A stretch of 64,000 nt of DNA from Candidatus Contendobacter odensis Run_B_J11. GTDB lineage: Bacteria; Pseudomonadota; Gammaproteobacteria; Competibacterales; Competibacteraceae. The stretch lies in NCBI RefSeq assembly GCF_000531125.1, contig NZ_CBTK010000024.1, positions 1-64,000 of the forward strand, in the 5' to 3' direction. This document shows positions 11,491 through 30,951 of the stretch, piece by piece. The notes under the pieces are model-generated. The model did not search any database and had not been told where the DNA came from. It was given only the letters and a program-made list of their open reading frames with translations. Position 1 is the first letter of the stretch, and each line of letters opens with the position of its first letter. The translations under genes and the position numbers were made by a program.

Positions 11491-14400
11491 TCAACGAACC
11501 ATCGGGTCGCCCGCGCTATATATCGGGTTGCGTAACAAAGTCACGAAGGCGTCGGCGGGGACCGGCGGACTGGTTAAATAGCCCTGATACTGGTCGCAGC
11601 CCTTGAGCTGCAAGAACGCCAGTTGCTCAGCGGTTTCCACCCCTTCGGCCAGCACCTTGAAGCCCAGGATATGGCCCATCGCAATAATGGTGGCGGCAAT
11701 CTCCATATCATCGCGTTGATGCGGGATGTCATCCACAAAGCTCTTGTCAATCTTCAGCACATCGAGTGGGAACCGCTTGAGATAGGCCAGCGACGAATAG
11801 CCGGTGCCGAAGTCGTCCATCGCCAGATGCAGTCCCAGACCGCGCAGCCGTTCCAGAATCGTCACCGCTTCCGTCTCACGCTGCATCAAGGCGCTTTCGG
11901 TCAATTCCAGCTCCAGCCACTCAGCAGGGAAACCGGTGTCGCTCAAAATCTGCATGACGGTGGCGGCAATGTCGCCTTGATGAATCTGGCGGGCGGAAAG
12001 ATTGACCGCCAGGGTCAGCGGCGGCAGACCCGCATCCAGCCAGACTTTGCCCTGACGGCAGGTTTCCCGCAGCACCCATTCACCGATGACGCTGATCAGC
12101 CCGGTTTCTTCCGCCAGCGGAATAAAGCGGGCCGGCGAGATCAAGCCCTGTTCCGGGTCTTGCCAGCGCACCAGGGCTTCCGCGCCGACAATCCGCCCAG
12201 TGGCGATATCCACTTGCGGTTGATAGTAAACCCGCAACTGCTGATCATTGATCGCGTGGCGCAAGCGGGCTTCCAGTTCAATCCGCTGGCGGGTGGCCTC
12301 GGTCAAATCGGCGGAGAAATACTGAAAGCGCCCGCGCCCTTCATTTTTGGCCTGATACAGCGCGGCGTCGGCCTGTTGCAACAGTTCTTCCGCGCTGTGG
12401 CCGTGGGCCGGGAACAGACTGATGCCGACGCTGGCACCGAGTCGCAATTCAGCGCCATTGGCTAACTGCCAGGGTTCGCTGAGCAGGCTGATAATCTCCA
12501 TTGCTACCCGCGCCGCGTCCTGCGGCTGGACCAAATTCTCCAGCAGCACCGCGAATTCATCGCCGCCCAGCCGGGTGACGGTATCCGCGCTGCGCAAGCG
12601 GCTGGTCAGCCGCTCCGCCACCTGTTGCAACAGCGCATCGCCCGCAGAATGCCCATAACTGTCATTCACATCCTTGAAGCGATCCAGATCCATCACCAGC
12701 AGGGCAAGCGCCTCGTCGTCACGGCGGGCAATGTCAATGCCGTGTTGCAACTGAGCGGACAGCAGCAGGCGATTGGGCAGACCAGTCAGCGGATCGTAGT
12801 GAGCCAGAAAATCCAACCGTTGTTCAGACGCCTTGAGCGAGGACAGATCGGTAAATACGCCCACATAGTGGGTCACGACGCCGGTGGCATTCTTGACCGC
12901 GCTGATGCTGAGCAGCTCAGGAAATTCCTTGCCGTCCTTGCGCCGGTTCCAGATCTCGCCCTGCCAATGCCCAGTCGCGCGCAGGCTGACCCACATTGCG
13001 GCGTAGAACGCCGGGGTTTGCCGACCGGAATGCAGCAGGCGCGGGGTCTGGCCCTGCACCTCGGCCTCGGTGTAACCCGTTAGGTCGCAAAAGGCCCGGT
13101 TGACCCGCAAAATCCGCTCGTCGGCATCGGTGATAGTGATGCCTTCGCGGGTGTTCTCGAACACGGTAGCGGCCTGACGCAATCGCTCCTCGGCGCGCAG
13201 CCGCTCAGTGACATCGTGTGCCAGCACCACTTCAGCCCGCCGCCCGGCGAATTCGAGAATATGGGAAGTAATCTCGACCTCAATCAATGAACCGTCCTTT
13301 TTACGATGTTTCCAGATTCCGGCTTCATCAATGTGGTGGTTTTGCACCTGGGCGATATTGTCCAGCAGGCGCGGCACCGCTTCGGGCGGACGAATATCGG
13401 CAATGGTCATGTTCAGGAACTGGTCCCGGCTGAAGCCGTAGTGCTGAATGGCGGCATCATTCACCGCCAGAAAGCTCAGGGTTTCCAGGTCATAAACCCA
13501 CATCGGCAGTGGGTGCGCTTCAAACAGGTGGCGATATTGCAGCTCGCGCTGGCGCAACGCCACCAGCGCCCAGTTGCGCTCGGTGACATCAGCGGCCATG
13601 CTCATCGCCAGGCGACGGCCATCGGCCAGACTGCCCAGCGCCACCGAACTGAACTCCCAGTCGCGCTGTGAGCCGTCTTTGCAAGTGATTCGATATTCTC
13701 CCTGCGCTACCCGTTGCTGCAAATCGTAGAGCTGATTAATCACAACCCGCACCGCCTGTTGCCGCTCGCCGTAGGCCAGTCCGGTCCAGTCGGCAATGGT
13801 GGGGATGTCGGCGCGGGCATAGCCGCTGATCTCGGTCCAGGTTCGGCTCAAGGCCAGCACTTCGCCATTTTCAGCGTGAATCATGATCGGAAACGGCGCT
13901 TCGTCTATTGCCCGGCGGAACCGCTCCTGACTTTCCCGCAACGCCTGTTCAGCTTCCAGATGAGCGGCGTCGGCCTCGGCAATTTCCAGGGCATAGGCAA
14001 TATCGCCCGCCAGTTCCTCCATTAGCGTGATCTCTTCCGCATCAAAGAAATCCGCTTCATCGGCATAAAGACTGATCGCGCCGCGGATTGCACCCTGCAC
14101 CGTCAGCGGCAACGCAATCAAAGCACGATAACCCAGCGCCAAGGCTTTTTCCCGCCACGGCCCCATCGCCGAATCGTGTTCAATGTTGTTGCAGACGGTG
14201 GTTTGACCGGTGCGCAGGGCAACGCCGGCCGGCCCCTCGCTGCGCGGACCGACCAGGGTGATGTGAGCCTCATTGACATAATCACCGACCTGTCCAGCTT
14301 GAGCGACTGGCCGCACCCAGCCGGTCTGCGGGTTGAGCAGCCCGATCCAGGCCATGCGAAAGCCACCATCGCGCACCGCAATATGGCAGGCTTCGCGGAA

Positions 14401-16107
14401 CATCCATTCCGGTTCCTTGCGGCGCACGATGGTTTGGTTGATGTTGGACAGCACCCGGTAAAGCCGGTTAAGTTTGCGAATTTGCTCGGTGGCCCGCTGC
14501 CGTTCGGTAATGTCATTGATCGTGGCAATGAAAGTCTCCACTTGACCGTCCTTGCGGCGCAAGCATTTGACATCAATCGCCGCAAACACGACCGCGCCAT
14601 CCTTGCGGATAAACCGCTTGTCCATCCGGTAGCCTTCGGAATCACCGCGCAGCACCCGCTCAAATTCGGCGACATTGGCTTCCAGATCGTCAGGATGGGT
14701 GATTTCAGCCCAGGTCATGTCCGCCAGCTCTGCTCGTGGATAGCCCAGAATTTCGCAGAGCCGGTCATTGAATTGCAGCCAGCGTTTGCTTTCCGGCGAA
14801 GTGATCGCCATCCCGACAAAGGGCAGGTCGTAGAACTGGCGCAGCAACCGGTCATGGTGGGCGGCCTGAGCCAGCAACTCGAACCGGTGAGCGCGTTGCT
14901 GCTGGCTCCAGAGCGCCAGCGCTGCCGCAGTTACGGCGGCAACGGCGAACAGCGCCACCACGCTAACCCAGAACACCAGGCGGTCCAGCGGCGCCATGAC
15001 TTCAGCGTGATCAATTTTCGCCACCAGATGCCAGCCGGTATCCCCCACCGGACGGAAGGCGGCCAGAACCGGTTCGCCGCGATAATCAATCCCGTGTTGG
15101 ACGCCAGTCTCGCCGGTGCGCACCGCGACTGCGGCCGGGAGATCAGGGCTGTTGAGCGGCTGGCGAAGACTCAGCGCCGCATCCGGGCGATGACGCAGTT
15201 CATTGAGGAATAACACTGATTCGCCGTCGCGGCGCACCAGCAGCGTTTCGGCGCTGGGGCTGGCGGTCGGCCAGCGCCGGATCACCGGAAACAGCAGGTT
15301 TTTTGGCCCGATATGCAGCACCACCACGGCGACCGGGCGCTGGCCTTCCCGCTCCGCCACCATGAGCGGCGCCACCCAATCCAGGTGAATCTGTCCGGCT
15401 TCATCGCGGTAAAGGTCGCTGCGCTGCACCTGGCCCGTGGCGAGCGCCTGGGTCAATAGCGGCTGTAACGGCATAGGAACTCCGGCATGACCGCCCAGAT
15501 TGATCCGGATTTGCCCTTGGGTATCCAGCAGCATCACTCCTTCATAGCCATAGGCGCTGCGCAGACTTTCCAGGCGTCCCACAATCTCCGCCCGCTGCAT
15601 CGCGTCGTCCTGGCGCAACCACTGTTCGACCTGTGCGGCAAAACTGGCGCTGCGGGTCTGTATTTCACTATCGCCCTGGCGTTCGCCCAGCCATTGAATA
15701 ATCTGATTGGCCTTGAGATCGGCAATGGCCTGAAGGTTGGCATAGGCTTCGCGTTCAAGTTGCGGACCATGCAGTTGCACGATGCCAAAACCGAGCAGCG
15801 GCGGCAGCAAAGCGAGACTGAAAAAGGTCAGCGCCCAATAACGGCGGCGCGGTTCAGGCGGCGCCGCATCTTCTACGCCGGTCGTGATCAGCGACTCACG
15901 CCAGCCACGCAACAGCAAAAAGAGCAAGCCGGCGGTGACAGTGACGAAAGTCAAACCCTTGATGATGCTCAGCCACGTCAGCAAGGCTGGATCAGCGATC
16001 ACCAGGCTTAACAGCCCATCCGAAGCGATGATCCACAATGCCGCAAACGCCATGTAAAGCAGTGCGACACTACCGACAGTCAGAGGGCGGCGCGATGATG
16101 AGGGCAT
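11491..16107 (-). CDS. Very large sensor: membrane sensor, 4 PAS, GAF, GGDEF and EAL
   Basis: This 1,538-residue protein is a c-di-GMP sensor-enzyme. Two N-terminal membrane helices (about 12-65) and a third at about 90-112 lead into an extracytoplasmic sensing region (about 113-385, including [11 protein letters not shown] and [18 protein letters not shown], typical of Cache-like domains). A membrane helix near 385-410 follows. Inside the cell come PAS (about 425-545), GAF (about 555-705), three more PAS domains (about 720-1090), GGDEF and EAL. The cyclase motif RLGGDEF and inhibitory site RSAD are intact, as are EALVRW, ELTES and DDFGTGYSS in the EAL domain, so both activities are possible. 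The start is an ATG without a strong ribosome-binding site. It is upstream of lgt and downstream of the hairpin nest. The ligand is unknown. Confidence 0.92.
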
Positions 16108-16362: not shown

Positions 16363-16392
16363 TTGATCTCCATGCTTCTTTGTGAGTATAAT
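16363..16392 (+). promoter_or_regulatory. Predicted sigma-70 promoter of tnpB
   Basis: TTGATC (16363-16368) and TATAAT (16387-16392) are separated by 18 bases. The expected start of transcription, 6-8 bases after the -10 box, falls on or just before the tnpB ATG at 16400. No Shine-Dalgarno sequence is seen there, so the mRNA may be leaderless. Confidence 0.6.
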
Positions 16393-16399
16393 TTTCAAT

Positions 16400-17527
16400 A
16401 TGAAAGTCGTACTGCAAATCAAATTGCTCCCAGATGAAATCCAACACGCAGCGTTGAAAGACACTATGCGTGTCTTCAATGAAGCGTGTAACTTCATTGC
16501 CGAAGTGGCGTTTCGGGAGCAATGCGCGTCCAAGTTTGTCTTGCAGAAACGGGTTTATGACGATGTAAGGAAACAGTTTGGGTTGTCGGCACAACTGACG
16601 ATTCGCGCCATTGCCAAGGTGGTTGAAGCTTATAAGCGCGACAAGTCGAAACACTGCTTTTTCAGACCTACGGGCGCGGTCGTTTACGATCAGCGCATTC
16701 TGAGTTTCAAGGGACTGGAAGCGGCCAGTATCCTGACCTTGCAGGGTCGGTTGACCATTCCCATGCACATGGGAGAATACCAGCGCCTTAAAATGGGCCG
16801 TGGGCATGGACAAGCTGATTTGGTTCTGGTTGACGGGGTGTTCTATTTGTTGCTGGTCATTGAAACACCCACAGCACCGCCGATTGACCCGAAAGATTTT
16901 ATCGGGGTTGACCTTGGCATCGTTCAAATCGCCAGTGATTCGGACGGCGAATCGTTCTCTGGCGAAACGGTTGAGAATACCCGCCGTCGCTACCACGAAC
17001 TGAGAAAAGCCTTGCAAGCCCGTGGATCGCGGTCGGCGCGTCGCCACGTGCAGCGGATCCGGCGCAAAGAATCCAGGTTCAGGAGAAATCAGAATCACGT
17101 TATTTCCAAGAAGCTCGTCGAGAAAGCCAAAGACACCGGGCGCGGAATCAAGCTTGAGAATCTCAAGCATATCCGTGAACGGACGACGGTACGGAAATCT
17201 GATAGAGCCAAACACAGCGGTTGGTCGTTCTTTCAGCTTCAATCCTTTATCGACTACAAAGCGAAGCGGGAAGGCGTTGTCGTTCAGTATGTTGACCCCC
17301 GCAATACTTCGCGCCGATGCGCGATTTGTGGGCATACTGAAAAAGCCAATCGCAAAACCCAATCCCGTTTTCACTGTGTCTCCTGTGGACAGGTGGCGAA
17401 TGCGGATAAAAACGCGGCGATTAATATCGCTGCACCGGCTCATGTCAATGAGCCTATCGTGGCGCACGATGACAACAACGGAGGGTTTCGAGTGCAGCCA
17501 CAAGCCCCATCCTTTAGGGCGGGGTAA
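16400..17527 (+). CDS. tnpB: TnpB, RNA-guided nuclease of IS200/IS605 family
   Basis: TnpB cuts DNA under the guidance of an omega RNA made from the right end of its element; it is the ancestor of Cas12. The 375-residue product has all three RuvC motifs: GVDLGIVQIAS (Asp), LENLKHIRE (Glu) and NADKNAAINIA (Asp). The zinc-ribbon cysteines are CAICGHTEKAN and CVSCGQ, and the C-terminal region NTSRRCAICG is typical. No frameshift or missing catalytic residue is seen. The end of the protein, SFRAG, is encoded by the terminal hairpin, as expected where the coding end and omega RNA overlap. The ATG at 16400 is chosen because it directly follows the predicted promoter; an earlier in-frame start at 16382 would lie upstream of the likely transcript. 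No tnpA accompanies it. Confidence 0.93.
   Translation: MKVVLQIKLLPDEIQHAALKDTMRVFNEACNFIAEVAFREQCASKFVLQKRVYDDVRKQFGLSAQLTIRAIAKVVEAYKRDKSKHCFFRPTGAVVYDQRILSFKGLEAASILTLQGRLTIPMHMGEYQRLKMGRGHGQADLVLVDGVFYLLLVIETPTAPPIDPKDFIGVDLGIVQIASDSDGESFSGETVENTRRRYHELRKALQARGSRSARRHVQRIRRKESRFRRNQNHVISKKLVEKAKDTGRGIKLENLKHIRERTTVRKSDRAKHSGWSFFQLQSFIDYKAKREGVVVQYVDPRNTSRRCAICGHTEKANRKTQSRFHCVSCGQVANADKNAAINIAAPAHVNEPIVAHDDNNGGFRVQPQAPSFRAG
17505..17524 (+). repeat. Right-end hairpin of the tnpB element; likely omega RNA 3' end
   Basis: CCCCATCC and GGGCGGGG pair around TTTA with one A-C mismatch, ending at the tnpB stop codon. In characterised TnpB systems the omega RNA scaffold spans the last part of tnpB and ends at the right end, with the guide read from flanking DNA. 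By analogy the guide here would begin near 17525. This RNA is inferred, not seen. Confidence 0.5.
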
Positions 17528-17599
17528 TTGACCCTTCTGAATGATGGCAACGCAATTCCGCGCTCTATGCCGCCCACGACCCGCAAAATGGAGATTGAA

Positions 17600-18436
17600 A
17601 TGGCCGAGCCTCTCAAGCCTGCCACCCAGGCCCCCCCCGAAGTTCGCCGTTCGCGCGGTGTGTATCTACTGCCGAATCTGTTCACGACCGCCGCGCTGTT
17701 TTGCGGTTTCTACGCCATCATCGCCGCCTTGAACCACCGCTTTGAACCTGCGGCTATTGCGGTGTTTATCGCGATGGTGCTGGACGGGCTGGACGGGCGA
17801 GTAGCGCGAATGACCCACACCGAAAGTGAATTTGGTGCCCAATATGACAGCCTGGCTGATTTAGTGTCGTTCGGTTTGGCTCCGGCACTGATCATGTACA
17901 TCTGGGCGCTGGGCACCATGGCGGAAATGGGACCTTTCCTGTCCAAACTGGGCTGGCTGGCAGCGTTCTTCTATACCGTGATGGCGGCGCTGCGACTGGC
18001 CCGCTTCAATGTGCAAATCGGCAGTACCGACAAGCGCTATTTCATCGGGTTGCCCAGTCCATCAGCGGCGGCAGTGATGGCCGGGTTGGTCTGGTTCAGC
18101 ACCGATCTGGGCCTGAGCGGCGCCCAAGTGCTGTGGCCGGCGCTGATCGTGACGATCAGCGCCGGAGCGCTGATGTTCAGCAACATTCTTTACTTCAGTT
18201 TCAAAAAAGTGGATTTGCGCGGGCGGGTACCGTTCATCGCGGTTCTGATCATTGTGCTGCTCTTCGTATTCACCTCGATTGACCCGCCCAAGGTGTTGTT
18301 CATCGGCTTCCTGCTGTATGGACTGTCGGGACCGGTGCTGTTGCTGTGGCGCTGGCGCCAGCGCATCCGCCGCCGTGCCCAAGGACCGGGCGATCCGTCC
18401 AACTCCCAGGCCGGAGGTCGCTCCGATCAACCCTGA
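17600..18436 (+). CDS. pssA: CDP-diacylglycerol--serine O-phosphatidyltransferase
   Basis: The enzyme makes phosphatidylserine from CDP-diacylglycerol and serine, the committed step to phosphatidylethanolamine, in the inner membrane. The 278-residue protein has the CDP-alcohol phosphotransferase signature with its aspartates, DGLDGRVARMTHTESEFG followed by QYDSLADLVSFG, and about eight hydrophobic helices. The first residues after the start are polar, followed by RGVYLLPNLFTTAALFCGF. GGAG lies six bases before the ATG at 17600; in-frame codons extend back to the edge of the tnpB element. This is the membrane-integral type rather than the E. coli phospholipase-D-like type. Its last 10 bp overlap the end of the convergent treY. 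Confidence 0.94.
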   Translation: MAEPLKPATQAPPEVRRSRGVYLLPNLFTTAALFCGFYAIIAALNHRFEPAAIAVFIAMVLDGLDGRVARMTHTESEFGAQYDSLADLVSFGLAPALIMYIWALGTMAEMGPFLSKLGWLAAFFYTVMAALRLARFNVQIGSTDKRYFIGLPSPSAAAVMAGLVWFSTDLGLSGAQVLWPALIVTISAGALMFSNILYFSFKKVDLRGRVPFIAVLIIVLLFVFTSIDPPKVLFIGFLLYGLSGPVLLLWRWRQRIRRRAQGPGDPSNSQAGGRSDQP

Positions 18437-21234
18437 CCCGATTCGTTGATCAGCAGCGCCACCGGGAAATGCTGGAATACCTCACGCAGCCACAACGCCT
18501 CCTCACCCTGCACAGTCTGCCCACTCAGGGCGTCGTACCAGCGCAGGCGAGAGCCGACAGGGGGTAACACGCGGGTTTCATGCCAGACCGCCTCGCCCAA
18601 TGGATACTCACCATCCTTGACCAGGCTGTTCGGGAAACGCGGCACCACCACCAGCGCCTGTTGCTCGCCTAGCGTCCGGGCGAACGCCACGACATGCGAC
18701 TTGAGGCTACCGATGACGGTGAGTTTCTGGTAGGCGCCGTGCTGAAATAAATCCGCCGCCGTCTGGCGCGCCCGCAAAGCTCGAAAAATCAGGAAAAGCT
18801 TAATCTGTCCATCCTCGGGCGCCGCCAGTAATTCCGCGATCAACTGGAGGATGTTATCGTTCGCACGGCTTTGGAGCGCCTGGAGCAAAGCGCCGCGCCG
18901 CTCAAAGTTGACCGGTCGCCGGTTATCGGGATCGACCAGGCTCAAATCCCATAATTCAGTACCCTGGTAGAAATCAGGCAAGCCGGGCGTGGTGAGTTTG
19001 AGCAAGGTCTGACTGAGCGAGTTGAGAATGCCGTAGTGCTGAATCCGCCGTTGAAACGGCAGAAACGCCTGGAGAAAGGGATTGTCCTTGCCCGGTTCCA
19101 TGACCCGTTCGGCGAAGGCAATCAAGGCGTTCTCGTAGCGACTGTCCGGCTCCAGCCAATTGGTATGAATCTTCGCCTCGCGGATCGCCTTGATCAGATA
19201 CGCTTTGACCCGCTCGATAAAGGCGGGGTACTCAGCCAGATCGAAGGGATATGCGCCCAGCAGCGTCTGGTACAGCAGGTATTCATCGTCGGTTTCGGGC
19301 GCCAGCCGCTCGCCGATGGGCGTCTTGCGCTCCAGATTGATCGCGTGCCATTGCCGCAACTGGCGTTCCCACTCTGCCGGCATTTCCGACAGCACGTTCA
19401 GCCGGGCGCGGACATCCTCGCCCCGCTTGGTGTCGTGCGTTGCGCTGGCGTTCATGGCATGAGGCCAGCAGCCCACGCGATGCTGATTGAAGGCGTGGAA
19501 TTCATCGAGATCGATGCCGAATTGCAACGGTCCCGCTCCCACCTCGTTCAGCGACAGCAACCGGTTATAGACATAAAACACTGTATCTTCAACGCCCTTG
19601 GCCATCAACGGCCCGGTGAATTGCTGCAAACGCATCATAAAATGCAGCCACTGGTCTTTGTCCTCAGCCGCCATGTGTTCATCAAAGTCCAGGCGCATGA
19701 AGCGTTCGATGAAGGCCAGTTCATTGCGAAAATTAGGAATGTTGATCCGGGCCTGGGCAATGATCTGTCGGATACATTCCTGATCGACCCGACTGGCGCC
19801 ACTGCGGCCGATGTAGCTGCGATAAATCGGGAACAGCACCATAATCTCGATCAGCGCCACCTGGAGTCCGTACAAGGTGAAATCGCTGGCGTAGCGGTAA
19901 CGCTCGGAAATCCGCTTGAGTAGATGCGCCAGATTGTCGATGTCGCCAGCCAGATGCTTGTCTACGATCATCCGCTTGTTGCAATCGATCAGTGCCTCGC
20001 ACGACGTGGTGTTGCCAATAAACGAGTGATAGAGCCGGGTAAATTCCGCTTCAGCGGCCGACTGGCAGAACAGGCCATTGATAATGCCGAGAAAATCGTA
20101 GCCGCTGGTGCCCTGGCACGGCCAGTTCACCGGCAATTGTTCGCCGTGTTCGAGGATTTTCTCCACCACCAGATAAACATAGGGTGCCTGTTCGCGCAGG
20201 CGATGCAGATACTGCGCCGGGTCGTACAGACCATCGATATGGTCAATCCGTAAACCGCTGATCTTCTCCTCGGCCACCAGCTTCAGGATCAGCTCATGAG
20301 TGAAATCAAAGACTTTTTGATCCTCAATCCGTAGCGAAATCAAATCATTGATGGTAAAAAACCGCCGATAATTCAGTTCCTCGTTACCCACTTTCCAGTA
20401 GGACAGCCGGAAAAACTGCTCATTGAGCAGACTGTCCAGCAGGTCAAAGCTTTCGGGCTTGCCGGCTTCGCCATTGAAGATGCGGATATTTTCCTCGATG
20501 AACGCATGCACTTCGGAACTGCCGTTCCATAACTCCCACAACATCTGCTTGGTGAAGGAAATCTGATCGTAGCGCTCCCGTCCCTCCTTGCCGGACGGAA
20601 TGTACTTGAGCAGGTAAAGTACCCCCAGAAACTTGACAAAATGCGGATGATTGCGCTCAAGCGTGGCGCGTAACCGCCCCAGATCGTAGGTCAATAGCCG
20701 GTAGTAGGACTCGATCCGGATCGGAAACCGAAAATCATAATAGTGGACGGCGAGACCCTGTTCGCTATAGCGCAACTGCAACTCACCGCTTTCCAGACAC
20801 TCGCCATAGAACTTGCCCAGAAAAGGTGCCAGCACTCGACCGCGAATCCCTTCGTAGAGATGATTCCAGTTGATATCGAAAAATTCGTGATAGGGTGAAT
20901 CGGGGCCATTTTCCAGCACGTCCACCAATAACTGATTTTGGCTGTTGAAAGCCATGTGGTTGGGCACGATGTCCTGCACCCAGCCGATATTCTTTGTTTT
21001 TAGAAACTGAAGAAGCGATTCGAACCGCTTCAGGCCACCCAGTTCAGGATTGATAGCGTGCGCATCCACCACGTCATAACCATGTTGGCTGCCGTGGCGC
21101 GGCGTCAGGATTGGCGAAGCATAAATATCGGAGATTCCCAAATCCGCCAGATACGGTGCGATAAGAGCTGCGGCGTCGAAGCCGAAATCGGGGGTGAATT
21201 GCAGGCGATAGGTGGCAACAGGGATGTGCATCAT
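18427..21234 (-). CDS. treY: Maltooligosyltrehalose synthase
   Basis: TreY (GH13_26) turns the reducing-end alpha-1,4 bond of a maltodextrin into an alpha-1,1 bond, giving maltooligosyltrehalose for TreZ to cleave. The 935-residue product starts with PVATYRLQFTPDFGFDAA and SDIYASPILTPRHGSQHGYDVVD. It carries the catalytic-region motifs GLRIDHIDGLYDPAQYL and LVVEKILEHGEQLP, and the C-terminal LPDFYQGTELWDLSLVDPDN. Two adjacent ATG codons (21234 and 21231) lie eight or more bases after GAGGG. It is the last gene of the minus-strand trehalose operon, after a 120-bp gap that holds a dispersed hairpin. Its end overlaps pssA by 10 bp. Confidence 0.96.
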   Translation of the reverse strand: MMHIPVATYRLQFTPDFGFDAAALIAPYLADLGISDIYASPILTPRHGSQHGYDVVDAHAINPELGGLKRFESLLQFLKTKNIGWVQDIVPNHMAFNSQNQLLVDVLENGPDSPYHEFFDINWNHLYEGIRGRVLAPFLGKFYGECLESGELQLRYSEQGLAVHYYDFRFPIRIESYYRLLTYDLGRLRATLERNHPHFVKFLGVLYLLKYIPSGKEGRERYDQISFTKQMLWELWNGSSEVHAFIEENIRIFNGEAGKPESFDLLDSLLNEQFFRLSYWKVGNEELNYRRFFTINDLISLRIEDQKVFDFTHELILKLVAEEKISGLRIDHIDGLYDPAQYLHRLREQAPYVYLVVEKILEHGEQLPVNWPCQGTSGYDFLGIINGLFCQSAAEAEFTRLYHSFIGNTTSCEALIDCNKRMIVDKHLAGDIDNLAHLLKRISERYRYASDFTLYGLQVALIEIMVLFPIYRSYIGRSGASRVDQECIRQIIAQARINIPNFRNELAFIERFMRLDFDEHMAAEDKDQWLHFMMRLQQFTGPLMAKGVEDTVFYVYNRLLSLNEVGAGPLQFGIDLDEFHAFNQHRVGCWPHAMNASATHDTKRGEDVRARLNVLSEMPAEWERQLRQWHAINLERKTPIGERLAPETDDEYLLYQTLLGAYPFDLAEYPAFIERVKAYLIKAIREAKIHTNWLEPDSRYENALIAFAERVMEPGKDNPFLQAFLPFQRRIQHYGILNSLSQTLLKLTTPGLPDFYQGTELWDLSLVDPDNRRPVNFERRGALLQALQSRANDNILQLIAELLAAPEDGQIKLFLIFRALRARQTAADLFQHGAYQKLTVIGSLKSHVVAFARTLGEQQALVVVPRFPNSLVKDGEYPLGEAVWHETRVLPPVGSRLRWYDALSGQTVQGEEALWLREVFQHFPVALLINESGQG

Positions 21235-21262
21235 GGAATGACCCTCAGCAGTAGGGAGAGAA

Positions 21263-21290
21263 TGTGGAACGGGCTTTGTTCCAGCCCGTC
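21263..21290. repeat. Dispersed hairpin, GGAACGGGCT family (copy 1)
   Basis: ACGGGCT (21269-21275) and AGCCCGT (21283-21289) form a stem. The surrounding sequence, from CAGTAGG through TGTGGAACGGGCTT to CCAGCCCGT, is nearly the same as the copy at 23296-23318. It lies between treY and the DUF389 gene. Confidence 0.7.
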
Positions 21291-21354
21291 AAATCGGCTC
21301 GCAACGAGCCATGCACCGGTTGGCGGTCGTCGGATGATGTTGGGACGTTCTTGA

Positions 21355-23268
21355 TCAGAGGATGACCACGATAGTGGCCTCCAGCGTCACCGGGCGGCCG
21401 AGCCGGGATTCAATGGCCCGCTTGACCCGCTCCACGTCTGCTCGGTCCAGGGTGGTGGGCGATAGCAACCGTATCGACAAATGCAACCGGTCGCCCGGAA
21501 GCAATGCCGCCTCACGCAAAATCACCCCGGCGATCTCCTGGCCCTCCAAAGCCCGAACGATGGCGTTTTGTTCGACCATCCGGGTGAAACCCACGCTCAG
21601 CGGTACGCTCACCACTCCGACCAGCGCCAGCGCCGTCAGCAATCCTCGTTGCGCCAACCGAAACGGGCCAAATCCGAGCAGCAGAAACGTCAGGTTGCCG
21701 GCCAGCAAGATACCGAACAGATTGGTCAGGAACAGCAGGAAGGAATTTCGGAACACCATCCACTCGCCCCAGCCAAGGCCAATGCCAGCAACGGCGAGTG
21801 GAGGCACTAAAGCCACCGCAATCGCCACGCCGGCCAGGCTACGGGCGATTTCCTCGCGGGCATGAGCGTAGGCACCGACCACTCCGGACACCAGAGCGAT
21901 ACCCAAATCCAGCAGGGTCGGGTTAAGACGGGCGGCGATTTCGCTGGTCACCGAATGCAAGGGGATGACCCAGGTCATGGCTGCCGCGCAACTCAACGCC
22001 AGCAGCAGACCCAGGATCAAGGTCTTCAGGCTATCAGCCAACAGATTGCCATCCTGGCGCACCACCGCCATCGCCAGCGAGATGATCGGCGCCATCAGCG
22101 GCGCCAGAATCATGGCCCCGATGATCACGGGAGCCGAATTGGCGAACAGGCCGAGGCAGGCCAGCAGGGTGGACAACACCATCAGCGTCAAATAGGCCGA
22201 TGAAGGATGGGCGTTATCGCGCAACGCCAGATACAGATCCTTAAACTCTTCGGTGCTGGCTCGGTGCAGCCAGGGCAGAGGTTGGCTGTCCAGCGCGGTT
22301 CTGGACTCACCGACCGGCAGGCCTTGCACCTTATAGATTTCCTTGGCTTGCGGCGATCCTTCCTGCAGGTCCAGCCGCCGACCCGGCAGTAGCCGCAAGG
22401 TTTTGGGCGCTACCGTCAACTCCAGTTGGCGGGCGCTGATCCAGGCTCCATCCTGCGAATAATCCAGTGGACGGGAACTGGTCACCGTCAGCGCCGCCGT
22501 TTTGATGTGTCCAACGAACGGCGGCAGTTTTTCACGTTGACCGCCCAGAATCAGCGCCGCCAGCAGGAAGCGCAATATCTCCATGCGGCTGCGCGGCGCC
22601 AGGATCAGCGCATGGAGCATCCCGTCGTTGCCGCCGCTGTCGTCAATGATCCACCGAAATAACAGCGAAGCATGGCCCTTTTTGACGATCACGATGCCCA
22701 GCGCGACCGTCACCAGGCTCTTGTCCTTGCCGGTGGTGAGGGTGTAGGGATGCAGTTGCTGAATGCCAAATCCTGATCGCAGGATGCTCAGAAACCGCTG
22801 GAGTCGGGTGCGAAAGCCAGGGGACTGACCGCCTCCGCTCAGTGAGAACATTTCGCCAATCACCACCGAGTTGAAAACAGGGCGGGAGTTGGCGTACAGC
22901 AGGTCAACGCGCCCTTCCTTGGCGCCATTCAACGCATCGTCCAGTGCGTGTTCCAGGCGGGGCGCGACACCAAAGCATCGCCGCGCCTGGTTCAAGCCCG
23001 GATGCGGCAACAACCCGATGATCCATTGCCGGGCGACCGCTTCTGGCGCTAATTCGGCAAACTGGTCGTCATTCAGGTAAGTCAGCACGGTCATCCCTGC
23101 TGGCCAATCTGGCAGTGTGTTGAGCCGGTAAGAGACTACTTGCGCCGGACGATCCGCCAACAAGGGCAGGAGCGTGTCCCGCACCTCGATTTCGGCAGCG
23201 GGATCGAACAGCAGACCGAGTGAGAGGTCAGGGAGTTGGTCGGCGGGATCGTCCGGAACATGGGTCAT
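21355..23268 (-). CDS. DAGK-like/DUF389 membrane protein
   Basis: The C-terminal half (about 345-560) is a DUF389 membrane domain with about six helices, including VIIGAMILAPLMAPIISLAM and ARSLAGVAIAVALVPPLAV, and a short soluble tail (RLSIRL-like to VVIL). The N-terminal 330 residues resemble a diacylglycerol-kinase/sphingosine-kinase fold: WIIGLLPHPGLNQARRCFGV where such kinases carry a glycine-rich PxGTxN loop, then VDLLYANSRPVFNSVVIGE, DDSGGNDGMLHALILAPRS and YSQDGAWISA in place of the DGE segment. The loop lacks the GT pair, so catalysis is doubtful. The function of DUF389 proteins is not established. Its place between treZ and treY suggests a link to glucan, lipid or envelope metabolism, but that is only context. 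Confidence 0.88.
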   Translation of the reverse strand: MTHVPDDPADQLPDLSLGLLFDPAAEIEVRDTLLPLLADRPAQVVSYRLNTLPDWPAGMTVLTYLNDDQFAELAPEAVARQWIIGLLPHPGLNQARRCFGVAPRLEHALDDALNGAKEGRVDLLYANSRPVFNSVVIGEMFSLSGGGQSPGFRTRLQRFLSILRSGFGIQQLHPYTLTTGKDKSLVTVALGIVIVKKGHASLLFRWIIDDSGGNDGMLHALILAPRSRMEILRFLLAALILGGQREKLPPFVGHIKTAALTVTSSRPLDYSQDGAWISARQLELTVAPKTLRLLPGRRLDLQEGSPQAKEIYKVQGLPVGESRTALDSQPLPWLHRASTEEFKDLYLALRDNAHPSSAYLTLMVLSTLLACLGLFANSAPVIIGAMILAPLMAPIISLAMAVVRQDGNLLADSLKTLILGLLLALSCAAAMTWVIPLHSVTSEIAARLNPTLLDLGIALVSGVVGAYAHAREEIARSLAGVAIAVALVPPLAVAGIGLGWGEWMVFRNSFLLFLTNLFGILLAGNLTFLLLGFGPFRLAQRGLLTALALVGVVSVPLSVGFTRMVEQNAIVRALEGQEIAGVILREAALLPGDRLHLSIRLLSPTTLDRADVERVKRAIESRLGRPVTLEATIVVIL

Positions 23269-23295
23269 TGATCGCCATCATCAGTAGGAAAAAGT

Positions 23296-23318
23296 GTGGA
23301 ACGGGCTTCCAGCCCGTT
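23296..23318. repeat. Dispersed hairpin, GGAACGGGCT family (copy 2)
   Basis: AACGGGCT (23300-23307) and AGCCCGTT (23311-23318) are perfect 8-base arms around TCC. It lies in the 70-bp gap between the DUF389 gene and treZ, and its flanks match copy 1. Confidence 0.75.
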
Positions 23319-23338
23319 ACGGCGGTGGCCAGCCGATT

Positions 23339-25177
23339 CTAAATTTCAGTGGTGTAGACCACCACCGCGTAAGGCGAAAGCGTTATGGTATCCGGCAGGC
23401 TCCCATCGGGGAGTTGCGGTAGCAGGCCAGAATTTTCGCCGCCCCACGTTGTATCGGCGGAGTCGATTACTTTACGCCATGCGCCGACACCGGGTTCGAC
23501 GGTCACAGTCGCCGAGTCAGCGGCGAAATTCATCCAGGCGACTATCCGGTTGCCGTCGCGCCAGCGCCGCAATTCCAGTACGCCTGGTGCAATTATGGTT
23601 GCGGTCAGGCTGGCGTTATCGAGATGAGCCAGCGCGGGCAGTTCCCGCCGCAGTCGCAACAACTCGCGGTAAAAAGCGCGTAATTGACCCTGCCGACCTC
23701 TTTTGCCCAGTTCCCATTGCAGCTTTGAGTCCTCGAACGTGGTCTCTGCCTGCGGATCGGGCGCTTCGCCTTTGGCATGGAACGCCGCGAATTCTTTTTT
23801 CCGGCCTTCGCGCACCCCTTCAATCAAGGCCGGATCGCCGTGGCTGATGAAATACAGGAACGGTCGGGGTTCGCCGTACTCCTCGCCCATGAATAGCAAC
23901 GGCAGATAGGGCGACAGCAGCACTGCCGCTGCTACCAGTTTCAGCGCCGGAAACGGCAGCAGACCGGACAGCCGCTCACCCAGCGCCCGGTTGCCGACCT
24001 GATCGTGATTCTGGCTGCACACCACGAACCGCCAGGCCGGACAGTCGCCGGGATCGTCGCCGTGGAAACGCTGGCGGTGCGGGGAATAGTCCCAAGCGTA
24101 AACGAATGGCCGACGATAGGCCTGCGCCAACTGTTCCAAAGCGCCGAAATCCGCGTAATAGCCATGCCGCTCGCCGGTCAGCACCGTATGCAAAGCGTGG
24201 TGGAAATCGTCGCTCCATTGCCCGTCCAGCCCGTAACCGCCGGTGGCTGGGGTGCGAACGATACGCGGATCATTGAGATCGCTTTCGGCGATGAGATAGC
24301 AGGGCCGACCCTGGCGTTGTCCGCAATCCGCAGCGACTTCAGCCAGTTCCGCCAGAATATGGCGGGCGCCGAAGTCGTAAATAGCGTGGACGGCATCCAG
24401 CCGCAGCGCGTCGCAGTGGCAGGTCTCGAACCAGTAACGCGCATTGCCGACCATATACTCGCGCACACCGGGACTATGCGGGCCGTCGTAATTGACCGCA
24501 TCGCCCCAGGGGGTGCGGTACTGACTGGTGAAATACGTTCCCAGCCCCCACAGGTAATTACCTTCGGGGCCGAGGTGGTTGTAGACCACGTCCATGATGA
24601 CCGCCAATCCTTCGCGGTGGCAGGCGGCCACCAGCCGCTTCAATCCCTCGACCCCACCGTAAGAGTGTTGGGCCGCATAAGGGTAAACGCCGTCGTAACC
24701 CCAATTGCGCTCGCCGGGGAATTGGGCGACCGGCAGTAGTTCCAACGCATTCACTCCCAGTTCCCGCAATTCGGGCAGGCGGGGAATGATGGCGTCGAAC
24801 GTACCCTCAGCAGTGAAGGTTCCGACATGCAGCTCATACATCACCCACTGTGGCAGCGGCGGTGGTTGCCAGCCGCCATCGGTCCAGGCAAAGGCATGAT
24901 CAACCACTCGCGATGGACCATGCACTCCTTGCGGCTGGCTGTAGGAGGCGGGATCGGGGCGGTCAGTTTCGCCATCCCACTGGTAAAAGTAGAGTGCACC
25001 GGGTTCGATGCCGGTGATAGTGGCATGCCAGTAGCCCCGCTCATCGCGGATCATGGGAATCAGTCGATCAGCGGGCGCGATCAGATGAACCGCCGCTTGC
25101 TTGAGCAAGGGCGCCCACAAGGTGAAGACACAGTGCTGATCGCCGCGATAATGAGCGCCCAATTTGAAAGGGTTCAT
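23339..25177 (-). CDS. treZ: Malto-oligosyltrehalose trehalohydrolase
   Basis: TreZ (GH13_10) releases trehalose from the maltooligosyltrehalose made by TreY. The 612-residue protein has an N-terminal beta domain (FKLGAHYRGDQHCVFTLWAP), then the catalytic barrel. Key motifs are ELHVGTFTAEGTFDAII, VIMDVVYNHLGPEGNYL, the nucleophile region ALRLDAVHAIYD, the acid/base LIAESDLNDPRI and the third carboxylate QNHDQVGNRALG. A C-terminal beta domain ends with LSPYAVVVYTTEI. ATG at 25177 is chosen; AAGGAG lies 11 bases upstream, and the TTG at 25186 would be too close to it. It is the third gene of the trehalose operon. Confidence 0.96.
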   Translation of the reverse strand: MNPFKLGAHYRGDQHCVFTLWAPLLKQAAVHLIAPADRLIPMIRDERGYWHATITGIEPGALYFYQWDGETDRPDPASYSQPQGVHGPSRVVDHAFAWTDGGWQPPPLPQWVMYELHVGTFTAEGTFDAIIPRLPELRELGVNALELLPVAQFPGERNWGYDGVYPYAAQHSYGGVEGLKRLVAACHREGLAVIMDVVYNHLGPEGNYLWGLGTYFTSQYRTPWGDAVNYDGPHSPGVREYMVGNARYWFETCHCDALRLDAVHAIYDFGARHILAELAEVAADCGQRQGRPCYLIAESDLNDPRIVRTPATGGYGLDGQWSDDFHHALHTVLTGERHGYYADFGALEQLAQAYRRPFVYAWDYSPHRQRFHGDDPGDCPAWRFVVCSQNHDQVGNRALGERLSGLLPFPALKLVAAAVLLSPYLPLLFMGEEYGEPRPFLYFISHGDPALIEGVREGRKKEFAAFHAKGEAPDPQAETTFEDSKLQWELGKRGRQGQLRAFYRELLRLRRELPALAHLDNASLTATIIAPGVLELRRWRDGNRIVAWMNFAADSATVTVEPGVGAWRKVIDSADTTWGGENSGLLPQLPDGSLPDTITLSPYAVVVYTTEI

Positions 25178-25351
25178 GGAAATCAAGTCTCCTTGTCCAG
25201 TCAGTAGATACCGTTTTAATGCTTAATAAGCAGGAGCGGATCGCCATCTTTTTGGCAACCCAACATGAATTTGGAAAACTGAAACGGACTTGGTGAGGGT
25301 GAGACCAGTTGGATCGGCTGGCGTCAGGCCCAGCCAATATGGAAAAGAGGG

Positions 25352-27499
25352 TTATTCTGAAGCCGCGACACTGGACGGTCGTTGCAGAACCACCAGCGCC
25401 CGGCCAGCCACCGGCACGGTGGGCGCTTCGGCATCGTAGCTGCGGCCACGTTGCAAAAAGCGGGGCTGGGCGGTGTCCATCACCGTCCGCCATTGCCCTT
25501 GTTGCAAGGTTTCGGGCAAGGCGAATTCCACCGCCTCATGGTGGGCGTTGAACAGCAAAATGAAGTCGTCGTCAATGATCCGCTCGCCACGCCGGTTGGG
25601 AGTGGCGATCTCCTCACCGTTGAGAAAGATGCCGATGACCTTGGTCAACCCATCATGCCATTGTTCCTCGGTCATCTCGCCGCCATCGGGATTGAACCAG
25701 AGGATGTCGTTCACGCCGGAACCGTGAATTGAGCGCCCCTGGAACCATTTGCGCCGGCGCAGCACCGGATGGTCGTAGCGAAACGCCATCAGCTCGCGGA
25801 CAAATTCCAGCAGCGCCGCGTTTTCTTCCGGCAAATCCCAGTTCAGCCAGGAAATCTTGTTATCCTGACAATAGGCATTGTTATTGCCGCCCTGGCTGCG
25901 GCCCATCTCGTCGCCGGCCAGCAGCATCGGGACGCCCTGCGACAGGAACAGGGTTGCCAGAAAATTGCGCTGCTGACGCAAGCGCAGTTGCAAAATCTCC
26001 GAATCGTCAGTCTCGCCTTCAGCGCCGCAATTCCAGGAGCGGTTGTGGCTTTCCCCGTCGCGGTTGCCCTCGCCGTTGGCTTCATTGCGCTTTTCGTGGT
26101 AGCTGACCAGATCGCGCAGGGTGAAACCGTCGTGGGCGATGATGAAATTGATGCTGGCGCTGGGATTGCGCCCGTTGGGCTGATACAGATCGGAGCTGCC
26201 GGTGAAGCGGAAGGAGAAATCGGCCAACCGACTCGGTTCACCGCGCCAGAAGTCGCGCACCGTATCCCGATAGCGGCCATTCCATTCCGACCAGAGTAGC
26301 GGAAAGCCGCCCACATGATAGCCGCCTTCGCCCACATCCCATGGTTCGGCGATCAGTTTTACATCGGACAGCACCGGGTCCTGATGAATGATGTCGAAGA
26401 ACGCGGCCAGCCGATCAACCGCGTACAGTTCCCGCGCCAGCGCCGAGGCCAGGTCGAAACGGAAGCCGTCGACGTGCATCTCCAGCACCCAGTAGCGCAG
26501 GCTATCCATGATCAGCTTGAGCACCTGTGGATGGCGGACATTGAGCGAGTTGCCGCAGCCAGTAAAATCCATGTAGTAGCGCGGATTGTCCTCGACCAGC
26601 CGATAATAGGCGGCGTTGTCGATCCCGCGCAGGGTCAGGGTCGGTCCCATCTGGTTGCCTTCGCCGGTGTGGTTGTAGACCACGTCCAGAATCACCTCGA
26701 TGCCGGCTCGGTGCAGCGACTTGACCATTTCCTTGAACTCGCGCACCTGTTCGCCGTAGTGGCCGCTGGCGCTGTAGCCGGAATACGGAGCAAAGAAATT
26801 CAGCGAGTCGTAACCCCAGTAATTGCGCAGCCCGGTAGCGGCCAGATGACCGGGATGGGCCAGGTAGTGATGCACCGGCATCAACTCGACCGCGGTGACA
26901 TCAATGGAGCGCAGATGGGCAATCGCGGCGGGATGCGCCAGGCCCGCGTAGGTGCCGCGCAGTTCCGGCGGAATGTCCGGGTGCAGGCGGGTGAATCCCC
27001 GAACGTGCAGTTCATAGATCACCGTCTCATGCCAGGGTGTGCGCAGCAATTCGTCGCCTTCCCAGTCGAAACGGGGATCGATCACCACGGCCTTCGGCAT
27101 CAGCGGCGCGCTGTTGCTTTTAGAAAAGGCCAGATCGTCTTCGGGTTGATGCCACGGGTAACCGAAAATTCTCTTACCGAAGCGAACATCGCCGTCGAGC
27201 GCTTTGGCATAGGGATCAATCAGCAGCTTGTTGGGGTTGAAGCGATGACCCTCGTGCGGCGCGAACGGGCCATGCACCCGAAAGCCATAGCGCTGCCCCG
27301 GCCCGATTTCCGGTACGTAGCCGTGCCAAATGAACTTGTTGACCTCCTTCAGTTCCAGCCGGGTTTCTTTGTTTTTCTCGTCAAACAGGCAGAGCTCAAC
27401 CTGGGTGGCGTTTTCCGAAAACAGCGCGAAATTAGTACCCTTGCCATCCCAAGAAGCGCCCAACGGATAAGGTTTGCCAGGCCAAAGCGGATGAGACAT
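25352..27499 (-). CDS. glgX: Glycogen debranching enzyme (isoamylase type)
   Basis: GlgX (GH13_11) hydrolyses alpha-1,6 branches of glycogen, preferably short branches left by phosphorylase, giving linear chains that TreY can use. The 715-residue product begins with a CBM48-type domain ([21 protein letters not shown]) and then the barrel with [43 protein letters not shown] (nucleophile), [16 protein letters not shown] (acid/base) and [18 protein letters not shown]. The ATG is preceded by AAGGAGG five bases away, the strongest ribosome-binding site in this operon. It is second in the operon, 53 bp after the TreS fusion. Confidence 0.96.
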
Positions 27500-27552: not shown

Positions 27553-30500
27553 TCATCTTGGCCCATCCTTCGCTTCGAGTGAGAAGAGTTCACACAATCC
27601 CCCGAGCGGAATGGCGACCCAATCGGGGCGGTTGTCCAATTCGTAACGCAGTTCGTAACAGGCTTTCTCCAAGGTAAACAGTTCCAGCAGTATCTTTACC
27701 TGATCGGGATCGGTGGGATATCCCGGACTGTCCCCCACCGCTTCAACATAGGCGTTCAGAAACGCGGCGCGGGTTTGCTGTTCCCAAGCGCTGAGATACG
27801 GCCAAAGCTCCGTCCAGTGGCAGGTTCCATCAGCGGTGGCCTGCCGCAGAGCGGCATGAGCCGCATAGTTGAACGAGCGCAACATCCCCACTACGTCTCG
27901 CAGTGGCGAATGTTTGGCGCGTCGCTCCGCCAGCGACCGCGACGGCTCGCCCTCGAAGTCGATAATGATCACATCGTCCCTGGCCACCAGCACCTGGCCG
28001 AGATGGTAATCCCCGTGATAGCGCGTCTTGGCGGCCTGGGGAGTCAGCGTTTCGATTTGCGCGGATCGGGCCTCCACCGTGCCTCTGGATTCCAGCACTT
28101 GGGTCGCCAGCGAGGCATAGCGGCCCGCCTGCGGTAGGCCGATTTGGGCCGTGAGTACCCGTTCGGCCAGCGACCGCGCCAGCTCCGGGAGCCGATGCCG
28201 GGACTGCTCCAGTTGTTCAAACGTCGTCTTCACTTCCCCACGGATTTGGTCCATCCAGTCGCTCAGATCAACCGCCGTAATCGGTTCTGGATCGAACGCT
28301 GGATCGCCGGTGGTTTGCGCCAGCGCCCGGTGCAATTCGCCGGTGCGCTGGCCCAGAGTCGTGGCAAATAGCAAATAGACCGTATGGGTGTTTCCACCAG
28401 CTTCCCGGATTCTATCCGGCTGTTCGAGACAGTCCGTCAGAAAGCGTTTCAGATAATCCTGGGTATAACCCCAGGCATCGCCTTGATTGGCTACGAAGCC
28501 TTGCAACAACACCAGAGTGATGCTATCGCCCGCCTCGTCCTCATACTCGAGCGCGCCAGCCAGCGGCGCGATATTCGGAAAAGCGATTTCGGTGAGAAAC
28601 CGGCCCATCTCCAACTCAGGGCTGATACCGGACTGCAAGCGGCGGTAGCCTTTCATCAGCAACCGCTCGCCGATAGCAAGGGTGGTGTTGCTGCTGTCCA
28701 GCGCCAGCCGCTTGACCGGCAGCACTTCCGGCGCATCGCCGGCCAGTTCGGCGAACGCCGGGGTGACGGAGAATCTCAACCAGCCTTGACCCAGGGGAAC
28801 CCGGGCGCCACGCGCGATCATCTTGATCAGGGTTTGGCAAAACAGTTCGTCGGCAAAAGCGCCGTACAGCAGACCCGTCCGGGCCTTGGATCTCACCCTG
28901 GCCAGCGTGTAGGGCCACAGAGGCCGCAATTTTTCATCGCCGTCCTCCTCCCAGGCCAGTGCCAGCGGTAAGGCGTAATCCTGGGGCTCCGCCCGCCCGA
29001 CCATCCAGACCCGCGCCCGCGCCAGTAACCACTCGCTGCGGTCGGCCCAGATCGCATATTTCTCGAACTCCACCCGTTCGATCTTTCCACCCTTACCGGC
29101 GAACCAGCGCTGGGTCGGGAGGAAGTCCGGCAAGATTCGTCGGATCAGCCGCTCGTGCAGGGTCGCCGCCATCGCCCGTCGACGTGGCTCGACCTCGTCG
29201 ACGAAAAAGCTCTTCCAGCCCTGGAACAGCACCAGCACCCGCAATTCCAGGCCCGGCAGTGTGCCTTCATGCCAGACCGGTGGCGCGGCCTTGGTCAGTC
29301 GGAACCAGTAAAATCCTTGACGGGACAGCGTGAGCAGATAGGGCAATTCGCCAATGGGCGGAAAGGGAGTCTGACCAAGCATTTCCACCGGAACCAAGCC
29401 TTTATATTGTTTAAGGTCGAGTTCCACCGGCTGCGCCGCCCGCGACAGGTTGGCAACGCACAACACGACCTCGTCGGCGTAGCTCCGGGTATAGACCAGG
29501 ATCTTGCGGTTGCCGGGGCGCAGCAGTTCCAGTCGGCCACGGCCAAACGCCTGACAGGATCGGCGCACCGCCAGCAACCGCCGGGTCCAGTTGAGCAGCG
29601 AGGCCGGTTCGCGCTGCTGCGCCTCGACGTTGACTGCTTCGTAGCCGTAGATCGGGTCCATGATCGGCGGCAGGTACAGGCGCTGCGGGTCAGCGTTGGA
29701 GAAGCCGGCGTTGCGGTCAGGACTCCACTGCATCGGAGTGCGCACCCCGTTGCGGTCGCCGAGATAGATGTTGTCGCCCATGCCGATTTCGTCGCCGTAA
29801 TAGAGGATGGGCGTGCCCGGCATCGACAACAACAGGCTGTTCATCAGCTTGATTTTGGCTGGATCGTTATCCAGCAGCGGCGCCAGCCGCCGGCGGATGC
29901 CGACATTGACCCGCATTCGTGGATCGGCGGCGTAGGTGCGGTACATGTAGTCCCGCTCCCGGTCGGTGACCATTTCCAGCGTCAGTTCGTCGTGGTTACG
30001 CAGAAAGATCGCCCATTGGCAGGGGTCGGGAATGCTCGGGGTCTGCTCGAGAATATCCACCACCGGGTGGCGATCTTCCTGGGCAATGGCCATGAACATG
30101 CGCGGCATCAACGGGAAGTGATAGGCCATGTGGCACTCATCGCCATCGCCGAAATAGTCGCTCACGTCTTCCGGCCATTGATTGGCCTCGGCCAGGAACA
30201 TTCGGCTACGGTAATGGGCGTCCACCACCGCCCGCATTTGTTTGATCACCGTGTGGGTTTCGAGCAAATTCTCGTTGGCGGTGCCCTCGCGCACGCACAG
30301 GTAGGGAATGGCGTCCAGCCGCAGCCCGTCTACTCCCAAATCCAGCCAGAATCGCATGATTTTGATCACCGCCTTCACCACCGCTGGATTGTTGTGATTC
30401 AAATCCGGCTGGTGGGAGAAAAATCGGTGCCAGTAATATTGCTGGGCTACTGGATCCCAGGCCCAGTTGGAAGTTTCAGTATCGGTGAAGATGATCCGGG

Positions 30501-30951
30501 TTTCCGGGAATTTCTGGTCGTCGTCGCTCCAGACGTAGAAATTCCGTTCCGGCGAACCACGCGGGGCGCGGCGCGCGGCCTGAAACCAGGGATGCTGGTC
30601 GGAGGTGTGGTTGATGACCAGTTCGGTGATGATTTTAAGCCCCCGGGCGTGGGCGGCGCGGACGAAGGCCCGAAAGTCGGCCAGCGTGCCATAATCGGGA
30701 TGGACGTTCTGGTAATCGGAAATGTCGTAGCCGTCATCGCGCATCGGCGAGGGATAAAAAGGCATCAGCCACAGCGTATCCACTCCCAGTTCCTGGAGAT
30801 AATCCAGCCGCTGGATCAAGCCCAGGAAATCACCGAAGCCATCCTGGCTGCTGTCGCCGAATGCTTTGACGTGCAGTTGATAAACAATGGCGTCCTTGTA
30901 CCAGAGGGGATCTTCCACACCGATCCAGCCTTTGTTCGGGTTACGAACCAT
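27553..30951 (-). CDS. treS: Trehalose synthase/maltokinase fusion
   Basis: The N-terminal half (about 1-550) is trehalose synthase (GH13_16), which interconverts trehalose and maltose: WYKDAIVYQLHVKAFGDSS, LDLGVDGLRLDAIPYL (nucleophile), FLAEANQWPEDVSDYFG (acid/base) and FLRNHDELTLEMV. The C-terminal half (about 580-1120) is a Pep2-type maltokinase, which makes maltose-1-phosphate with ATP; its kinase-like motifs are RYHGDYHLGQVLVA and VIIIDFEGEPSRSLAERR. Such fusions are known in GlgE-pathway bacteria. No glgE or glgB is in the window. The ATG follows AGGAG six bases away. It is the first gene of the five-gene minus-strand operon; the 142-bp gap to the ada-like gene should hold the operon promoter. 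Confidence 0.96.
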   Translation of the reverse strand: MVRNPNKGWIGVEDPLWYKDAIVYQLHVKAFGDSSQDGFGDFLGLIQRLDYLQELGVDTLWLMPFYPSPMRDDGYDISDYQNVHPDYGTLADFRAFVRAAHARGLKIITELVINHTSDQHPWFQAARRAPRGSPERNFYVWSDDDQKFPETRIIFTDTETSNWAWDPVAQQYYWHRFFSHQPDLNHNNPAVVKAVIKIMRFWLDLGVDGLRLDAIPYLCVREGTANENLLETHTVIKQMRAVVDAHYRSRMFLAEANQWPEDVSDYFGDGDECHMAYHFPLMPRMFMAIAQEDRHPVVDILEQTPSIPDPCQWAIFLRNHDELTLEMVTDRERDYMYRTYAADPRMRVNVGIRRRLAPLLDNDPAKIKLMNSLLLSMPGTPILYYGDEIGMGDNIYLGDRNGVRTPMQWSPDRNAGFSNADPQRLYLPPIMDPIYGYEAVNVEAQQREPASLLNWTRRLLAVRRSCQAFGRGRLELLRPGNRKILVYTRSYADEVVLCVANLSRAAQPVELDLKQYKGLVPVEMLGQTPFPPIGELPYLLTLSRQGFYWFRLTKAAPPVWHEGTLPGLELRVLVLFQGWKSFFVDEVEPRRRAMAATLHERLIRRILPDFLPTQRWFAGKGGKIERVEFEKYAIWADRSEWLLARARVWMVGRAEPQDYALPLALAWEEDGDEKLRPLWPYTLARVRSKARTGLLYGAFADELFCQTLIKMIARGARVPLGQGWLRFSVTPAFAELAGDAPEVLPVKRLALDSSNTTLAIGERLLMKGYRRLQSGISPELEMGRFLTEIAFPNIAPLAGALEYEDEAGDSITLVLLQGFVANQGDAWGYTQDYLKRFLTDCLEQPDRIREAGGNTHTVYLLFATTLGQRTGELHRALAQTTGDPAFDPEPITAVDLSDWMDQIRGEVKTTFEQLEQSRHRLPELARSLAERVLTAQIGLPQAGRYASLATQVLESRGTVEARSAQIETLTPQAAKTRYHGDYHLGQVLVARDDVIIIDFEGEPSRSLAERRAKHSPLRDVVGMLRSFNYAAHAALRQATADGTCHWTELWPYLSAWEQQTRAAFLNAYVEAVGDSPGYPTDPDQVKILLELFTLEKACYELRYELDNRPDWVAIPLGGLCELFSLEAKDGPR

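Follow-up and report, generated by a model that had tools for sequence, protein, structure and literature searches.

Gene X, which lies between treZ and treY in the window (the whole 64,000-nucleotide stretch that was analysed), encodes a conserved integral membrane protein in which a pseudokinase is joined to a DUF389 domain (Table 1). The N-terminal half has a diacylglycerol-kinase fold and, judged by its sequence, is a kinase that has degenerated family-wide and is devoid of the usual ATP-binding motifs. The place of X in the trehalose operon is a single derived association in one sublineage. DUF389 occurs widely among bacteria and archaea and, as originally stated, has no settled function. 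Our literature search on DUF389 found no ligand, substrate, phenotype or function, and searches on TIGR00341 and COG1808 found no papers. The family-wide fusion to a dead lipid kinase provides a concrete handle, namely a soluble domain of known ancestry, on what a DUF389 protein senses.

Table 1. Gene X, its parts, the flanking leaders and the trehalose genes, with positions in the window
Feature	Position	Strand	Basis
Gene X, pseudo-DAGK-DUF389 membrane protein, 637 aa	21355-23268	-	ORF with ATG start, domain searches, AlphaFold model
X, N-terminal diacylglycerol-kinase-fold domain, residues about 17-300, nucleotide-binding loops lost	22369-23220	-	PDB profile matches, Foldseek, motif table
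X, residues 64-68, YLNDD, position of GGDGT nucleotide loop	23065-23079	-	Alignment to intact lipid kinase; 27 homologues
X, residues 84-102, IGLLPHPGLNQARRCFGVA, position of PxGTxNDFA loop	22963-23019	-	Alignment to intact lipid kinase; motif table
X, membrane helices of DUF389 half, residues 339-574	21547-22254	-	AlphaFold models, Pfam (DUF389 match at 21703-22113)
X, C-terminal small alpha/beta domain (strand-strand-helix-strand), residues 575-637	21358-21546	-	AlphaFold models
Leader copy 1, immediately before X; contains a palindrome (GGGCTGGAAGCCCGTTCC at 23298-23315)	23275-23317	-	Sequence comparison
Leader copy 2, immediately before treY; contains a palindrome (21266-21287)	21232-21289	-	Sequence comparison
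treY, maltooligosyltrehalose synthase, downstream neighbour of X	18427-21234	-	TIGR02401, 957 bits, above cut-off
treZ, maltooligosyltrehalose trehalohydrolase, upstream neighbour of X	23339-25186	-	TIGR02402, 694 bits, above cut-off
glgX, glycogen debranching enzyme	25352-27499	-	Domain search
treS fused to maltokinase	27553-30951	-	Domain search

A degenerate lipid kinase joined to a DUF389 membrane unit

The N-terminal half was originally said to resemble a diacylglycerol kinase, and fold comparison confirms this. Single-sequence models match it weakly (YegS_C, E 0.016; the lipid kinase PRK13057, E 9e-4), and a PDB search with the sequence of X gave no matches. A profile (A2) built from 20 relatives of X was also searched against the PDB. 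Eight sequences matched at E≤10, all of them lipid kinases and none of any other kind, the best being 4wer (E 2.2e-14), BmrU, YegS (2bon, E 9.6e-8) and DgkB (2qv7, E 1.2e-6). Given that the single-sequence search of the PDB was empty, the kinship emerges only with a profile. When the AlphaFold2 model of X (mean pLDDT 80.8, pTM 0.62) is used as a Foldseek query, the top solved match is S. aureus DgkB (2qvl; E 2.8e-13, TM 0.73 on the target). Lower-ranked matches are further bacterial lipid kinases, YegS among them, sphingosine kinase 1 and NAD kinase. Both profile and model place in the N-terminal half the two-lobed DAGK/NAD-kinase-like fold that we used as the criterion for LCB5/DgkB (COG1597), and we regard the diacylglycerol-kinase fold as settled.

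The original prediction also held that the GT of the nucleotide loop is missing, which is correct but understated, because both nucleotide loops and the Glu of DGE are gone. When X is aligned to an intact lipid kinase of the Gammaproteobacteria (L119), YLNDD of X falls opposite GGDGT, and PHPGLNQARRCFGV falls opposite the PLGSGNDFAKSLGI loop. The PxGTxND loop is absent, with PHPGLNQ there instead, and DGE has become DGA, which replaces the catalytic Glu position. In DgkB, the Glu of the DGE motif is the catalytic base. Among 27 diverse homologues belonging to many families, GGDG is present in none, PxGTxN is likewise present in none, and DGE is retained in five. Since GGDG and PxGTxN are missing in all 27, the loss of motifs is old and family-wide, and is not a matter of local decay.

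Both halves of the protein show purifying selection, with dN/dS values of 0.18-0.36 for the N-terminal domain and 0.11-0.26 for the C-terminal half, although these Nei-Gojobori estimates are approximate because dS is large. The best-conserved polar residues of the N-terminal half (T179, K181, T187, D215, S227 and D273) are located in the beta-sandwich lobe, away from the lost loops. D215 stands where DDG has its conserved Asp, D273 is the Asp of DGE, and both are conserved. The genome that carries X has two matches to DgkA-type diacylglycerol kinases (PF01219) elsewhere, so X is not needed for diacylglycerol recycling. The only DAGK_cat match in this genome is, judged by its own sequence, an NAD kinase.

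The assignment of the C-terminal half to DUF389 is borne out by PF04087, which matches at E 3.5e-42 and 144.1 bits (gathering score 23.9) over model positions 1-137 of 137. X also matches TIGR00341 over its hydrophobic part (94.2 bits, narrowly under the NCBIfam cut-off of 94.75) and TIGR00271 (130.2 bits, under the cut-off of 146.5). An AlphaFold model computed from a deeper alignment, with a mean pLDDT of 83.8, has about seven membrane helices, followed at the C-terminal end by a small alpha/beta domain. A plasmid search with X gave matches confined to the DUF389 half.

Foldseek found no convincing match between the DUF389 half and solved structures. The FNT channel 6vqr of P. falciparum, at E 0.08 and TM 0.43, is suggestive but below significance, and an FNT/aquaporin-like channel, for which we asked for a TM above 0.5 and a significant E-value, was rejected on these values. 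A CDF zinc transporter was also rejected, as the Foldseek matches were at the level of topology only (TM≤0.31). A possible internal repeat, in which the helices containing LAPLMAP and ALVPPLA align in register, is below significance as well (E 0.17). A channel or transporter role for the DUF389 half is therefore tentative.

X in the trehalose operon and in other genomes

The genes of the trehalose block follow one another on the same strand in the order treS-maltokinase, glgX, treZ, X and treY, with gaps of 53, 165, 70 and 120 bp. X was described as lying between treZ and treY on their strand, and this is upheld by the matches of the flanking genes to TIGR02402 and TIGR02401. No terminator-like or promoter-like sites were found in positions 21100-23450, which is compatible with co-transcription of X with the tre genes but does not demonstrate it.

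Other genes occur close to this block. A CDP-alcohol phosphatidyltransferase gene (17528-18436, plus strand) is convergent with treY and overlaps its end, and the two genes stay close together in several genomes of the same family (L018, L060, L061, L062 and L071). Directly upstream of it is a gene (16382-17527, plus strand) whose product is an IS605-type TnpB-like protein (Cas12f1-like_TNB, E 2.9e-21; OrfB_IS605, E 5.4e-10). A multi-PAS GGDEF-EAL protein of 1538 aa is encoded at 11491-16107 on the minus strand.

The leaders before X and before treY are 79% alike over 43-48 bp (E 0.0017). In a pattern search, the palindrome GGGCTGGAA..CCCGTTCC has three copies in the 4.6-Mb genome, two of which are in the leaders flanking X. 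The third is in an intergenic stretch elsewhere (G000 C169:3674-3691), so the palindrome may also be a small dispersed repeat. The duplicated leader of ~48 bp on both sides of X is consistent with insertion.

The family, apparently Competibacteraceae, is represented by 39 genomes, of which 9 have X and four carry it between treZ and treY (the window genome, G003, G024 and G011). Elsewhere in the family, X is beside an alanine racemase gene and an mdoG-like gene (G001), outside the tre operon (G002 and G022, with phosphoglucose isomerase adjacent in G002) or away from treZ/treY (G396 and G398). Five genomes have empty sites, in which treZ adjoins treY at about 30-50 bp without X (G008, G017, G018, G019 and G022). 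A tree built on the C-terminal part groups the four tre-linked copies in a single clade (support 95/95), which is nested among unlinked copies from the family. Outside the family, linkage to treY/treZ occurs at none of 21 full-length loci in 19 genomes, as judged from the available flanks, some of which are on short contigs. No neighbour of X recurs among homologues beyond close relatives, and most neighbours are unrelated. At one locus (L102), a protein of GH13 type that shares 28% identity with TreS is encoded 3 kb from X, and a pair of loci (L111 and L113) has a related gene just upstream of X, which in L111 is a GH57 gene.

The original prediction had relied on the linkage to treY/treZ being conserved, and the few linked genomes, their single clade, the five empty sites and the 21 unlinked loci outside the family contradict it. 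The empty sites and the unlinked homologues rule out a conserved linkage to glucan genes. The simplest explanation is one insertion in the ancestor of the tre-linked sublineage, possibly spread by recombination. Operon position alone can therefore mislead, as the linkage of X to the trehalose genes looks like one recent insertion.

The tre-linked copy in G011 (L019, C28, 4401-5346) directly follows treZ and consists of the DUF389 half only, the kinase half being gone. Compared with the window, the gap between X and treY is 98% identical and TreY 96%, versus 85% for TreZ, a contrast that suggests recombination between genera at the X-treY border. The X genes of G003 and G011 contain frameshifts, but we rejected their interpretation as pseudogenes. 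Adjacent enzyme genes on those contigs also carry small frameshifts, so those in X point to assembly errors. The loss of the N-terminal half in G011 is a larger deletion, which we take as real, and so the dead kinase is dispensable in this genome, which retains just the DUF389 half.

One gammaproteobacterial genome (G272) has three divergent full-length paralogues of X (L107, L108 and L109). A gene for a mechanosensitive channel lies 129 bp from one of these, L108, and shares its strand.

Possible functions and relation to known systems

We propose that the N-terminal module, presumably cytosolic, descends from LCB5/DgkB-type lipid kinases and has probably lost their normal mode of ATP binding. 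Its beta-sandwich and cleft, which are retained, would form a binding domain without catalytic function, recognising a lipid headgroup, some other phosphate compound or a partner protein, and this binding would control the membrane unit formed by DUF389, possibly a small channel or transporter. X would have been inserted between treZ and treY together with the duplicated leader and is probably expressed with the trehalose genes, presumably by co-transcription; a direct part in trehalose or glycogen metabolism would not be required. That X is a conserved pseudokinase-DUF389 protein in which the one-time lipid kinase now serves the membrane unit as a cytosolic domain for binding or regulation seems to us about evenly balanced between right and wrong. 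The dead kinase module may plausibly bind a lipid or other ligand. A more specific proposal, which we offer only tentatively, is a bacterial lipid pseudokinase family, in which a DgkB-type domain without ATP motifs would be a lipid or phosphate receptor gating a DUF389 channel or transporter. If true, this would be the first mechanism for DUF389 and would define a non-catalytic regulatory branch of the lipid-kinase fold in bacteria.

Alternatively, the dead kinase might only aid the folding, assembly or membrane retention of the DUF389 unit, and the site in the tre operon would be a chance insertion that supplied a promoter. Such a role would fit the unrelated genes that adjoin X in nearly all other genomes, the survival of the DUF389 half in G011 after loss of the N-terminal domain, and the conservation of this domain, which is below that of the membrane half. 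However, the N-terminal domain is under purifying selection, and several of its residues, including K181, D215 and D273, are shared by 88% or more of the homologues, across families, and are not obviously structural; we rank a purely structural or hitchhiking role second, as possible but rather unlikely. Continued activity as a lipid kinase with a non-canonical nucleotide site appears highly improbable from the sequences, as both nucleotide loops are gone in all 27 homologues and the Glu of DGE is replaced in X and its close relatives, even though the fold is kept, D215 and D273 are conserved and five homologues have DGE.

The original prediction was that X may sense the state of a lipid or polyprenol and tune trehalose or glycogen turnover through its operon partners, thereby tying membrane state to glucan turnover. 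The lipid-kinase fold is indeed retained, and X shares a strand with its neighbours across gaps of 70 and 120 bp, with no terminator-like site around it. Moreover, the host family is apparently Competibacteraceae, which are glycogen accumulators, and sugar-related neighbours occur elsewhere (the mdoG-like gene in G001, phosphoglucose isomerase in G002 and GH57 in L111). However, these neighbours vary from place to place, could simply reflect background, and are outnumbered by unrelated ones. Given the linkage in 4 of 39 family genomes, all in one clade, the five empty sites and the other neighbours at all 21 loci outside the family, the link to glucan turnover comes down to shared orientation in one sublineage, and we judge this explanation improbable. 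A binding or regulatory domain that acts on the membrane unit is the reading that we prefer.

Our comparison with lipid kinases draws on the summaries of DgkB and YegS in PMC12673472 and PMC8534027. The N-terminal half of X shares the two-lobed fold of DgkB, YegS and BmrU (COG1597/LCB5; DAGK_cat plus YegS_C), and keeps the DDG-like Asp and the Asp of DGE. Unlike these enzymes, X and all 27 homologues have lost the GGDGT and PxGTxND loops, and X is without the Glu of DGE and is fused to about seven membrane helices. With respect to the DUF389 family, residues 386-522 of X match the PF04087 model end to end, but in the Gammaproteobacteria that were sampled, most DUF389 proteins are smaller, at about 330-400 aa, and can be aligned with just the DUF389 half of X. 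The enzymes beside X are ordinary members of TreYZ/TreS-maltokinase/GlgX trehalose-glucan operons, whereas X itself is missing from the trehalose operon of relatives, where treZ directly adjoins treY.
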